This document shows positions 5,480-32,000 of a stretch of DNA of 48,434 bases, one piece after another (the stretch's first letter is position 1; each line of letters begins with the position of its first letter). A program made the position numbers and the translations under genes. The stretch is from Candidatus Thermoplasmatota archaeon (GTDB lineage Archaea > Thermoplasmatota > SW-10-69-26 > JACQPN01 > JAIVGT01), in the NCBI GenBank assembly GCA_035541015.1, contig DATLFM010000024.1, forward strand, positions 1 to 48,434. Direction: 5' to 3'. Under the pieces are notes generated by a model. That model was not told where the DNA came from. It saw nothing but the letters and a program-made list of their open reading frames with translations, and did no database searches.

Positions 5480-5505
5480 CGGGCGGGCGATGCGGGGCGG
5501 CGACG

Positions 5506-23023: not shown

Positions 23024-23737
23024 CTAGGGGACGACCTCGCCGGCCAGGAACCCGCGTGTCCACGCATTCGCGGGTGCGTGAAGCGCCTCGCGGCCTCCCC
23101 GCTCGACCACCGAACCGTCGCGCAGGAAGGCCACCTCGGTGGCAAGCCGCCTGGCCTGGAAGACGTCGTGCGTGCACAGAAGAACCGAGCGGCCGGGCTG
23201 ACGGGCAAAGGCGCCCGTGGCCGCCTCGAGCGCGAGCACGTTGGCGGGATCGAGATTGGCCGTGAACTCGTCGAGGAGGAGGATCTCGGGCTCGACGAGC
23301 GTCGCCCGCACGAAGGCCAGGCGCTGGAGCTCCCCGCCCGAGAGGTGCCGCGCAGGGCGGCCGGCGACGTGCGCAAGATCCATGCGGAGAAGCGCCGGAA
23401 GCGCCCGCGCGTGCGCCTCCTCGCGCGGCACGCCGCGGACGCGAAGACCCACGGCCGCGTTGTCGAGCACGGTCCCCGCAAGGGCCACCGGACGCTGGAG
23501 GACGACGCCCATGCGGCGGCGCGCGGCGAGCGCGTCCCGCGGGAGCGCGCCGTCCACGAGCACCTCGCCGCTTTCGACCGGATGCAAGAGGGCGGCGACG
23601 CGAAGGAGCGTCGTCTTGCCGGCGCCGGAAGGGCCCATGACCGCAAGCACTCCGCCCTCGGGCACGGCAAGGTCCACGCCGCGAAGCGCAAGCCGGCCGC
23701 CGTGACTTGCCGCCACGCGCGAAAGCGTGAGCCTCAC
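23024..23737 (-). CDS. tupC: Tungstate/molybdate ABC transporter ATPase
   Basis: A 237-aa ABC ATPase. Walker A is MGPSGAGKTTLL, the signature is HLSGGELQRLAF, and Walker B is EILLLDEFTANLDPAN followed by LCTHDVFQA. The start is GTG at 23737, overlapping the permease stop as GTGA with GGGAGG about 8 nt upstream, which decides it over upstream codons. It energises uptake by the permease and binding protein encoded just before it. Tungstate rather than molybdate is inferred from the binding protein type; some relatives take both. It is the last gene of the three-gene unit. Confidence 0.9.
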   Translation of the reverse strand: MRLTLSRVAASHGGRLALRGVDLAVPEGGVLAVMGPSGAGKTTLLRVAALLHPVESGEVLVDGALPRDALAARRRMGVVLQRPVALAGTVLDNAAVGLRVRGVPREEAHARALPALLRMDLAHVAGRPARHLSGGELQRLAFVRATLVEPEILLLDEFTANLDPANVLALEAATGAFARQPGRSVLLCTHDVFQARRLATEVAFLRDGSVVERGGREALHAPANAWTRGFLAGEVVP

Positions 23738-24372
23738 GGGCGGTCCTCCCACAGCGTGAGGGCAAGCACGGTCGCCGCCGAGAGCGCAAGCAGGATCACG
23801 CCCAGCAGGACCGCGTACTGGAGGTCGCCCCTTCCGGTCTCAAGCACGATCGCGGTCGTGAGCACGCGCGTGTGCGACTGGATGTTGCCGCCCACGATGA
23901 TGACGGCGCCCACCTCGCCGATCGCGCGCCCGAAGGCCAGCATGAGCGCGCCCACGAGGCTCCGGCGGATCTCGCGCAGCAGCATCCCGCGCACCTGCGA
24001 CTCGCTTGCGCCCACGGCGCGCGCGGTCTCACCAAGCAGCGGATCGACCGACGCGACGGCCGAGGCGACCATGCCGGCCAGAAGCGGCGCCAGGAGAAGC
24101 ACCTGCGCCACCACCATCGCCTCCGGCGTGAAGAGAAGCCCCAACGACCCAAGCGGCCCCGCGCGCGAGAGGAGCAGGAACACGAAGAGCCCGGCGAGCA
24201 CCGGAGGAAGGCCGTAGAGCGTGCGAGTGAGGACGAGGAACGTGCGGCGAAAACGCGTCCGCCGCTCGCCCAGCCACAACCCCGCCGGCACGCCGAGGAC
24301 GCCGGCGAGCGCCGTGCTGGCAAGCGCCACCTGGACGGTGAGAAGCGTGATCGCCCCGACGTCGGCGCTCAT
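23734..24372 (-). CDS. tupB: Tungstate/molybdate ABC transporter permease
   Basis: A 212-aa inner membrane protein with five to six helices. The ABC-permease loop that docks the ATPase is visible as ETARAVGASESQVRGMLL, and GRAIGEVGAVIIVGGN is typical of the TupB/ModB/WtpB group. ATG at 24372 overlaps the stop of the binding-protein gene as ATGA, and its own stop overlaps the ATPase start as GTGA, so all three proteins should be translated in series. Confidence 0.9.
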   Translation of the reverse strand: MSADVGAITLLTVQVALASTALAGVLGVPAGLWLGERRTRFRRTFLVLTRTLYGLPPVLAGLFVFLLLSRAGPLGSLGLLFTPEAMVVAQVLLLAPLLAGMVASAVASVDPLLGETARAVGASESQVRGMLLREIRRSLVGALMLAFGRAIGEVGAVIIVGGNIQSHTRVLTTAIVLETGRGDLQYAVLLGVILLALSAATVLALTLWEDRP

Positions 24373-25214
24373 GCGCCTCCGCCCGAAGCGCCCGCGCGGA
24401 ACAACGGTCGCCCGTCCACCGCAAACGTCTCGACGGCGGCCCGCCCTTCGGCCGAGAGCAGCCACTCGACGAAGGCCCCCGCCGCCTCGGAGTTGACGCC
24501 CGGCACGCGCGAGGCGTCCACCGGAAGCGCGCTGTACACGTTCGTGAGCGCTTCTCCGCCCTGCACGTGGACGACCAGCGCGAGCGCGCTGCGATACGAA
24601 TGGTACGTGGCCTCGTCGACAAGCGTGTACGCCGAAAGCTCGCTTGCGATGCGCAGCGTGGCGCCCATGCCCTGCCCGACCAGACGGTACCACGGCGCCG
24701 GGACGACCTCACGATCGTAGTCGAGGCCCGAAAGCGCCCAAAGCTCGCGCTCGCGCGCGTGCGTGCCCGACCCGTCCCCGCGCGACACGAACGGAGCACC
24801 CGCTTGCGCCAACGCAGCCATGGCGGCCGGAGCGTCGAGGCCCGCCACGCGCACCCCGTCCCCCGAGGGGCCCACGATCAGGAACCCGTTGCGCGCGAAC
24901 ACGTGCCGCCCCGTGCCGAACCCTTGCGCGACGAAGGCCTCCTCGAGCGCCGGCGCGTGGGTGAGAAGAACGTCTGCGTTGCCGCGCTTGGCGTCCTCAA
25001 GCGCCAAGCCCGTTCCAAGCGCGCGGACGCGAACGTCGATCCCGCGCGCCTGCTCGAAGACCGGAACGATCGAGGCGAGCAGGCCGGAATTCTCAAGGCT
25101 CGTCGTCGTGGACACGCGCAGCGCCGGACGCGGGCTGGATTCGAAGGCCGACAGGCACCCGGCGAGCGCGGGGGCCAGAAGCGCGGCGATCGCAAGCGCG
25201 GCGACGGTCCGCAT
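24369..25214 (-). CDS. tupA: Tungstate-binding lipoprotein of the ABC transporter
   Basis: A 281-aa periplasmic-type binding protein with a lipoprotein signal (LLAPALAGC, Cys20). The hallmark LRVSTTTSLENSGLL after the signal, RGNADVLLTHAP and the GDGSGTHARERELW stretch identify the TupA-like oxyanion binders (tungstate, possibly molybdate). It would sit outside the membrane anchored by lipid and hand substrate to the permease. It is first in the unit, and its promoter carries a ModE-type operator and is divergent from the ModE gene. Confidence 0.9.
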   Translation of the reverse strand: MRTVAALAIAALLAPALAGCLSAFESSPRPALRVSTTTSLENSGLLASIVPVFEQARGIDVRVRALGTGLALEDAKRGNADVLLTHAPALEEAFVAQGFGTGRHVFARNGFLIVGPSGDGVRVAGLDAPAAMAALAQAGAPFVSRGDGSGTHARERELWALSGLDYDREVVPAPWYRLVGQGMGATLRIASELSAYTLVDEATYHSYRSALALVVHVQGGEALTNVYSALPVDASRVPGVNSEAAGAFVEWLLSAEGRAAVETFAVDGRPLFRAGASGGGA

Positions 25215-25228
25215 GCGGCGCGGTCACC

Positions 25229-25254
25229 CCGTTATGCTCGCTTAAGCATAACGG
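25229..25254. promoter_or_regulatory. ModE-type operator over a divergent promoter
   Basis: A perfect inverted repeat has 10-bp arms (CCGTTATGCT and AGCATAACGG) and a 6-bp spacer. The CGTTAT-N12-ATAACG layout equals, from memory, that of the E. coli modA operator for ModE. GCTTAAGC at 25241-25248 in its centre is a palindromic AT box about 29 nt from the tupA start and about 35-47 nt from the two possible modE starts. Metal-bound ModE on this site would shut off both promoters. Confidence 0.85.
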
Positions 25255-25291: not shown

Positions 25292-25855
25292 ATGCCGCGC
25301 CTGCGCACGCGAAGCTGGCTGGAGGCGCGCGGCCGCGCGGTCCTGCCCGACGACGCCGCCGCGCTCTTGTCGGCCGTTGCGACCGAGGGCTCGCTTGCGG
25401 CCGCGGCGCGCGCGACGGGCCGATCCTACCGTCACGCGTGGGGCCTCCTGCGGAAGGCGGAGGAAGCCGCCGGGCGCCCTCTCCTCACGCGGGCGCGCGG
25501 GGGCGCGGCGCGAGGCGGCGCGCGCCTTACGCCGGCCGGCGAGCGCGTGCTTGCCGCCTACGAGCAACGGCGCGGCGCGCTCGAGCGCGTCACGGACGAG
25601 GACACCTTCTGGCAGGCGATGGGGTACGGCCTGTCGGCGCGCAACCAGCTCCGCGGGACGCTGCGGGCCGTCGAGCGCGACGGCGTGGCGGCCCGCGTCA
25701 CGATCGACCTTGCGCCCGGCCAGGCGCTGGAGAGCCTCATCACCCGAGCCGCCGCCGACCACCTCCGCCTGCGGGAAGGGCTTCGCGTGAGGGCCGTGAT
25801 CAAGGCCACGGAGGTCATGATCCTCGCGCCCCCGCGCAAGCGTCCACCGTCGTGA
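25292..25855 (+). CDS. modE: Molybdate/tungstate-responsive regulator
   Basis: A 187-aa ModE. Residues 21-85 are the LysR-like winged helix (LLSAVATEGSLAAAARATG, RHAWGLLRKAEEA, TPAGERVL). Residues 114-180 form a single Mop/TOBE oxyanion-binding domain with SARNQLRG at 115-122 and KATEVM at 171-176. E. coli ModE has two Mop domains; one per subunit is common in archaea and other bacteria. It likely senses tungstate or molybdate and represses the divergent transporter through the operator at 25229-25254. ATG at 25292 is used; TTG at 25280 would add four residues and lies closer to the AT box. Confidence 0.9.
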   Translation: MPRLRTRSWLEARGRAVLPDDAAALLSAVATEGSLAAAARATGRSYRHAWGLLRKAEEAAGRPLLTRARGGAARGGARLTPAGERVLAAYEQRRGALERVTDEDTFWQAMGYGLSARNQLRGTLRAVERDGVAARVTIDLAPGQALESLITRAAADHLRLREGLRVRAVIKATEVMILAPPRKRPPS

Positions 25856-26935: not shown

Positions 26936-27093
26936 TGGGTGGTGACAGCGAACGTCCTTGCGGACCCTGGCAAGCCAGGCACGCTTCCCAGCCGGTCTCC
27001 CAAGCCGGTACCTCGTGGCACGCAGGAGGGCTTAACTTCCGAGTTCGGGACGGGATCGGGTGTACCCCTCCGCCATGACCGTCAAGCCACCCA
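26936..27093 (-). rRNA. rrf: 5S ribosomal RNA with an extra insertion
   Basis: The minus strand reads from TGGGTGGCTTGACGG to CTGTCACCACCCA; these ends pair as helix I (with one wobble). The conserved core CCCGAACTCGGAAGTTAAGC is present. The gene spans about 158 nt, while most 5S RNAs are about 120 nt. The excess is at 26954-26979, which on the transcript forms two small hairpins (CCTGGC/GCCAGG and GTCC-GCAA-GGAC) inserted in the 3' strand of the helix IV-V arm. It is the last gene of the rRNA operon. Confidence 0.9.
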
Positions 27094-27096
27094 CTG

Positions 27097-27118
27097 CAAC
27101 CGATCTTGCGATCGGTTG
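27097..27118 (-). other. Hairpin with GNRA tetraloop in the 23S-5S spacer
   Basis: The transcript strand has CAACCGATC and GATCGGTTG arms (9 bp, perfect) closing a GCAA tetraloop, just upstream of 5S. It may guide processing between 23S and 5S. Confidence 0.6.
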
Positions 27119-27130
27119 ACCGTGAATCAC

Positions 27131-27165
27131 ATACGCGAACCCGTTTGAAGGTTGAGTCATAATCG
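27131..27165 (-). other. 3' strand of the 23S processing stem
   Basis: This segment pairs with 30090-30124: 13 perfect pairs (ATACGCGAACCCG), an 8/8 internal loop and 14 pairs with one wobble around TTGAGTC. It is the typical pre-23S stem, cut in archaea at a bulge-helix-bulge by the splicing endonuclease. The exact bulges cannot be placed by eye. Confidence 0.75.
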
Positions 27166-30089
<2,924 letters not shown>

Positions 30090-30124
30090 CGATTACGACT
30101 CAACTGGCGTCCGGGTTCGCGTAT
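30090..30124 (-). other. 5' strand of the 23S processing stem
   Basis: Partner of 27131-27165; see that entry for the pairing. It sits between the tRNA-Ala and 23S in the precursor. Confidence 0.75.
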
Positions 30125-30296
30125 GCATCGACCTTCATCGCCCGGCGCGCCGGATGGGCGCGTCTTACGGACTGGGCCGCTTCCCCGACGCGCCTAGGTA
30201 GCGGCGTCGCCGGGTGCACGTGATTGTCATGAATCGGACCGCCCGAAAGCGGTTCGAGATGACTTGGAATTGGGAACCGACCGGTCCATCGTGCGA

Positions 30297-30368
30297 TGGA
30301 CGTGGTGGGATTCGAACCCACGACTTCCTCATTGCAAATGAGGCGATCTTCCGCTGATCTACACGCCC
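30297..30368 (-). tRNA. tRNA-Ala (TGC)
   Basis: A 72-nt cloverleaf in the 16S-23S spacer. The acceptor stem GGGCGTG/CACGTCC contains the G3:U70 pair that marks alanine tRNAs, the D arm reads GATCAGCGGAAGATC, the anticodon stem-loop CTCATTTGCAATGAG carries TGC, and the T arm is GTGGGTTCGAATCCCAC. No CCA is encoded after the discriminator A. Alanine tRNA in this spacer is the common euryarchaeal arrangement. Confidence 0.97.
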
Positions 30369-30530
30369 GGCGTGGCCGGGCATGCGGTCCGCTTGGAATG
30401 AACGTTATGCTGTGCAGCGACGTGATTTGGTGCTCGCTTCCTTGTTTTCTGCCAAACGGCTGCCGAAGGTCCTTTCGAACCTCTGGCAACCGCAAGGTCG
30501 TTGTCGTAGACCCTCACGTACGAGGTTTCG

Positions 30531-32000
<1,470 letters not shown>

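Follow-up and report, generated by a model that had tools for sequence, protein, structure and literature searches.

A probable ModE operator between divergent tupABC and modE genes in a Thermoplasmatota archaeon

The window, a 48,434-nt stretch of DNA from an uncultured Thermoplasmatota archaeon, carries a tupABC-like set of transporter genes divergent from a modE gene, with a palindrome between them (Table 1). The tupA product scores 162.9 bits against NF041772, which is under the 400-bit equivalog cut-off; it contains the TTTS motif of TupA-type binding proteins (PMC5517513), here within STTTSLENSG, and structure comparison also matched it to 3lr1, which is named tungstate-binding. Family search and structure matches, with 5my5 the closest solved structure, bear out the TupABC-type identity that a first-pass annotation, made from the letters of the DNA, had given to the genes beside the operator. 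On the other side of modE, 1.1 kb beyond it on the minus strand, lies a complete linked archaeal rRNA operon (16S, tRNA, 23S and 5S; 26965–31999), whose genes identify the host as an archaeon.

Table 1. Genes and sequence elements at the tup/modE junction of the window.
Feature	Position	Strand	Basis or remark
tupC-like ABC ATPase	23024..23752	-	family call is generic ABC
tupB-like permease	23734..24372	-	family search
tupA-like, oxyanion-binding protein with TTTS motif	24369..25214	-	NF041772, E 9.5e-48; best PDB match 5my5
GGTGA, putative Shine-Dalgarno-like element	25224..25228	-	9 nt before tupA start; alternative to a leaderless start
Predicted ModE operator	25229..25254	.	10-bp arms CCGTTATGCT / AGCATAACGG, 6-bp spacer CGCTTA
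TTAA inside operator, candidate TATA-element core	25242..25245	-	-31 to -28 from tupA start codon
modE, winged HTH and one Mop/TOBE domain	25292..25855	+	alternative start TTG 25280

The modE product combines a winged helix-turn-helix, with SYRHAWG at residues 45–51 in the recognition region, and a Mop/TOBE domain at about residues 115–177. Its helix-turn-helix matches TIGR00637 (E = 2.9e-19) at 69.0 bits, below a curated 98.5-bit cut-off that no genome among the 389 scanned in the phylum attains, and we counted it as ModE-type; the Mop/TOBE domain matches TIGR00638 at 70.8 bits, above the cut-off of 55. The domain search thus agrees with the earlier description of an adjoining ModE with a single Mop domain, where E. 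coli ModE has two in tandem. Residues 23–176 align with the E. coli protein across both domains, and S115, R117 and K171 (including SARN) align with its ligand residues, which we take to be S126, R128 and K183. The AlphaFold model is of moderate quality (pLDDT 71.8, pTM 0.44) and finds E. coli ModE chains as its best PDB matches; four single-Mop archaeal relatives, including proteins from Hadesarchaea, Hodarchaeaceae and Bathyarchaeota, are 36–47% identical. Either tungstate or molybdate is a possible effector, because the genome holds two AOR genes, usually tungsten enzymes, and two partial molybdopterin oxidoreductase matches; the TTTS motif leaves the selectivity unfixed.

Read directly on the plus strand, the 26 bases of the palindrome form two perfect 10-bp arms. 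A motif scan of the window placed the core, CGTTAT-N12-ATAACG, at 25230–25253 with no mismatch, as had been claimed for the stretch between the binding-protein gene and modE. The palindrome lies 15 bp before tupA. The first-pass annotation had also described a palindromic AT box in the center of the site; such a box exists (GCTTAAGC, 25240–25247), but its own center is 2 bp off that of the operator, and the box is part of the extended second half-site, TTAAGCATAACG. A proposed scan for the same palindrome elsewhere found a single copy of the strict core in the 2.21-Mb genome, also when up to one mismatch was allowed, at the tup/modE junction, whereas a dinucleotide model built on 318 kb of the same genome predicts 0.0036 copies. 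The site likewise fits the relaxed form of an E. coli-type operator, CGnTAT-N12-ATAnCG, which occurs once in the genome against about 0.11 expected. Neither of the two AOR genes carries the strict core with up to one mismatch or the relaxed form.

The 12-bp core spacing recurs at other ModE loci. A motif-free palindrome search before 24 ModE matches had returned many GC-rich chance repeats and was replaced by fixed-motif scans with controls. Across 50 ModE loci (443 kb), CGnTAT-N12-ATAnCG occurs nine times, whereas each of the spacings N9–11 and N13–15, and each of four control palindromes, occurs at most once. A further set of 80 named ModE loci, identified by sequence and totalling 565 kb, has Hodarchaeaceae, Methanocellales, Methanosarcinales, Desulfarculus and Symbiobacteriaceae among its hosts. 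It gave nine N12 sites, none at N10, 11, 13 or 14 and one at each of N8, 9, 15 and 16. Half-site positions 7–12, which lie outside the search patterns, also agree: positions 7–8 are GC, and 28 sites give the symmetrised consensus CGTTATGCTTAATTAAGCATAACG.

Across 389 Thermoplasmatota genomes, the raw number of strict sites (25, in 20 genomes) is not above chance, since the reversed control pattern gave 24; the signal appears only when the sites are split by ModE and by neighboring gene. Defining ModE genomes by a TIGR00637 match of at least 55 bits (45 genomes, the window genome G000 included, with weaker matches counted as without), we found the strict site in 13 of 45 ModE genomes and in 7 of 344 others (p = 5e-9, inflated by kinship, as eight of the 13 come from two families), whereas the reversed pattern is present in 1 of 45 and 20 of 344, respectively. 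The remaining 32 ModE genomes have no strict site. ModE genomes hold 18 strict sites, and 16 of these stand directly upstream of tupA, wtpA, modA, mobB or AOR, with the three such calls in G344 (wtpA, modA and AOR) judged by N-terminus against its scanned relatives G226 and G280; of the other two, that of G090 adjoins modE and a gene for an NAD-type aldehyde dehydrogenase, and the last falls within an unrelated frame. Seven of the 25 strict sites of the phylum adjoin no Mo/W or modE gene.

Some of these placements concern enzymes. In G226 (L136) and G344 (L138), strict sites lie 31–44 bp before tungsten-type aldehyde ferredoxin oxidoreductase genes, and the predicted regulon there seems to include the enzyme, not only transport. 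In G090 (L089), the strict site at 5481–5504 lies 24 bp before the NAD-type aldehyde dehydrogenase gene, beside a short modE; this dehydrogenase may replace a tungsten aldehyde oxidoreductase without needing the metal.

The transporter genes themselves show the same association. The 389 genomes hold 48 tupA-like genes, spread over 46 genomes; we counted 47, leaving out that of G001, which is fragmentary and lies where a contig ends. Allowing up to two mismatches, we found a site before 12 of the 15 tupA genes of ModE genomes and before none of the 27 in genomes without ModE (p = 4e-8, inflated by kinship, as 26 of the 27 come from one family); outside both groups stand the genes of G013 (two) and G213, which have weak ModE matches, and those of G003 and G004, in which the recognition helix is changed. 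The three site-less tupA genes in ModE genomes are those of G037 and G042 and one of two in G023. Absence of the motif before tup/modE pairs in related genomes had been named as evidence against the operator; this count and the strict sites place it before Mo/W transport genes in ModE-bearing relatives. G003 (L102) and G004 (L103), which belong to the same taxonomic order as the window genome, have a ModE-like gene divergent from tupA, with DPSNA instead of SYRHA in the recognition region. We found no CGnTAT site in their tupA/modE-like intergenic stretches, which carry GGTC-N4-GACC palindromes in its place. Because an altered helix and other palindromes coincide, regulator and operator seem to have changed together in these two genomes, which belong to one family and are too few as proof.

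A site of this kind also occurs with ModE-type proteins that have another sensor domain or none; we assigned sensor types by eye or by regular expression. In eight genomes (G036, G067, G197, G226, G252, G255, G280 and G344), TIGR00637 has a single match, a protein that joins a ModE-type helix to a Nudix domain (for example, L070 and L079); Pfam confirmed Nudix in two fusions (G067 and G252), and the rest were read by eye. Eleven of the 12 strict sites in these genomes (L136–L139 and L141–L147) precede wtpA, modA, tupA or AOR. Short ModE proteins without a sensor domain lie near operator-bearing tup/mod genes in G320 (L086), G355 (L092) and G043 (L082), and in the ModE-type protein of G014 the C-terminal part matches no Pfam family. 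A genome search returned no Mop match anywhere in G252 and G255 or in G320, G355 and G090, whose ModE proteins are HTH-only. We are evenly balanced on the broader proposal that the archaeal Mo/W regulon keeps a fixed DNA code, CGTTATGCTT with N12 core spacing, and has an exchangeable sensor half (a Mop domain in G000, a Nudix domain in the eight genomes and no sensor in G320 or G355). If this is true, the Nudix fusions would be Mo/W regulators that respond to a signal different from free oxyanion, which might be a pterin or a nucleotide from the cofactor pathway.

These counts bear on what the palindrome of the window is. Inverted repeats with 10-bp arms and spacers of up to 12 bp begin at five positions in the window, the operator included, so that a chance repeat might be suspected; the other four are richer in GC, and the tiny expectation for the strict core, its location at the tup/modE junction and its conservation in relatives make chance a negligible explanation, refuted in practice by the locus, genome and tupA counts. 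It is also very improbable that another dimeric regulator reads the palindrome, or that it is merely a symmetrical promoter element, with the neighboring ModE a coincidence. Binding of the site by ModE is a prediction, and seven of the 344 genomes without a strong ModE match carry one strict site each, that of G239 lying 4 bp before a molybdopterin-enzyme gene; however, the enrichment is confined to N12 and to ModE genomes, and the two genomes with a changed recognition helix lack the site. We conclude that the palindrome is very probably the operator of the adjacent single-Mop ModE, which would repress tupABC when metal-loaded. Support for this reading is comparative: what we observed is the site itself, its agreement with an operator of E. 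coli, its association with ModE and its location ahead of Mo/W genes.

The position of the operator suggests how it might act. Its core covers positions -39 to -16 relative to the tupA start codon. Before 102 genes that come first in their transcription units in the window genome, A/T content is highest at -30 to -27, counted from the start codon (0.47–0.48 against a background of 0.34), in keeping with archaeal TATA boxes and with leaders that are short or missing. The GGTGA before tupA, which we take to be a Shine-Dalgarno-like motif, possibly favors a short leader of some 15 nt over a leaderless start; even with a leader of that length, the operator would overlap the stretch between TATA element and transcription start. 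In 14 binding-protein genes of the phylum, including that of G002, the site ends 5–15 bp from the start codon, with an internal start chosen in the five genes whose longest frame runs into the site. Because the operator spans the promoter region and includes a TATA-like stretch, we infer that repression of tupABC is steric. Plentiful cytoplasmic tungstate or molybdate would be bound by the Mop domains of a ModE oligomer; the loaded protein would bind the two CGTTATGC half-sites at E. coli-type spacing and deny TBP/TFB or RNA polymerase access to the tupABC promoter, so that uptake would stop. At low metal, ModE would leave the operator and the transporter would be made. ModE binding, the effector, repression with its steric cause and any effect on modE are all predicted here from sequence.

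The direction of control is the part of the first-pass annotation that holds only in part. One site was proposed to serve both directions, and control of tupA is the conserved half of that proposal. Control of modE is not: in G002, a genome of the same taxonomic order and the one relative that combines the divergent tup/modE layout with the site, the site lies 6 bp from tupA and 107–113 bp from modE; in three further genomes (G320, G355 and G043) it stands between the transporter, which it serves, and a divergent MOSC gene, with modE elsewhere. These arrangements favor a narrower form of our preferred explanation, in which the operator controls tupABC only and modE, transcribed from a separate promoter farther right, is not autoregulated through it; so does the 38-bp distance from the operator to the modE ATG. 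The alternative TTG start of modE is just 26 bp away, however, and sites 35 bp before modE in G014, G050 and G058 demonstrate that a site close to modE does occur elsewhere. This restriction to tupABC is a real possibility, though we lean slightly against it, and autoregulation of modE through the operator is plausible in the window genome. Activation rather than repression by ModE from the operator has a precedent in E. coli, where, according to the excerpt of PMC11980592 that we consulted, ModE represses modABCD and activates moa. Activation is conceivable at two AOR sites and one mobB site of the phylum, which lie farther upstream, 31–44 bp from the start. The tupA site, in contrast, covers the core promoter region itself, and cells rich in metal would be expected to switch high-affinity uptake off rather than on; activation of tupABC is therefore unlikely.

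Repression of tupABC by metal-loaded ModE would make the locus a testable control circuit for tungstate or molybdate uptake in an uncultured archaeon. It suggests that the DNA code of the repressor has stayed unchanged from E. coli to Thermoplasmatota, though the promoters that it blocks differ in build. The motif can be used to find Mo/W genes in archaeal genomes, and the operator seems to be recognised also by ModE-type proteins whose sensor domains are of other kinds. The type of switch is already known, because archaeal ModE operators, neighboring modE and tupABC genes and single-TOBE ModE-like proteins are already in print, and near-identical sites occur in other archaea as well. The less expected part is the presence of ModE-type operators in Nudix-fusion genomes, outside the window; we found no paper on a ModE–Nudix regulator in titles or the starts of abstracts, which is a weak test given the ambiguity between 'ModE' and 'mode'. 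The same inseparability makes weak evidence of a literature search on archaeal ModE, TATA box and tungstate that found none.

Conservation of ModE sites across domains is not new: a 2003 paper by Studholme and Pau reportedly describes it, by its title, with archaea included, so that it has been in print by title since then. In the partial texts of the respective sources, modE next to tupABC is reported in Geobacter bemidjiensis (PMC2996986), and control of modABC by ModE is stated for Methanosarcinales (PMC9765008). The TudE/ModE-like regulators outlined in an extract of PMC11980592 combine a helix-turn-helix with a single TOBE/Mop domain, like the ModE of the window; they come from gut microbes and are described there by domain architecture, and the extract gives no operator for them. 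Among sites covered by the consulted portion of PMC545781, that of Desulfovibrio (CGGTCACG-N14-CGTGACCG) also pairs a ModE-type DNA-binding domain with a transporter target but differs in letters and spacing, and its regulator is described as lacking Mop. The Geobacter sulfurreducens site, given in the same portion, resembles the E. coli consensus and precedes mod genes lying with modE, in a system that differs from the window in being bacterial and in having mod instead of tup. The published E. coli consensus, ATCGNTATATA-N6-TATATANCGAT (PMC545781, same portion), has the core spacing of the window site.

The closest comparison is with the E. coli K-12 modA operator. In the 8 kb around modE-modABC of MG1655, the single match with up to one mismatch is CGTTATATTGTCGCCTACATAACG, whose CGTTAT and ATAACG half-sites and N12 spacing are identical to those of the window, in line with the shared layout named in the first-pass annotation. 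It lies 19 bp before modA, compared with 15 bp before tupA, and both sites precede a binding-protein gene. On one side the E. coli half-site continues as CGTTATATT (ATT), whereas the archaeal half-site continues as GCT(T); neither has the extended AT half-site TATATA, the window having CGTTATGCT and E. coli modA itself CGTTATATT and CGTTATGTA. The E. coli site serves a bacterial promoter and a ModE with two Mop domains, and that of the window a TBP/TFB promoter and a ModE with one. This match, together with the sites at archaeal and bacterial ModE loci, upholds the earlier proposal that site recognition is conserved between bacteria and this archaeon.
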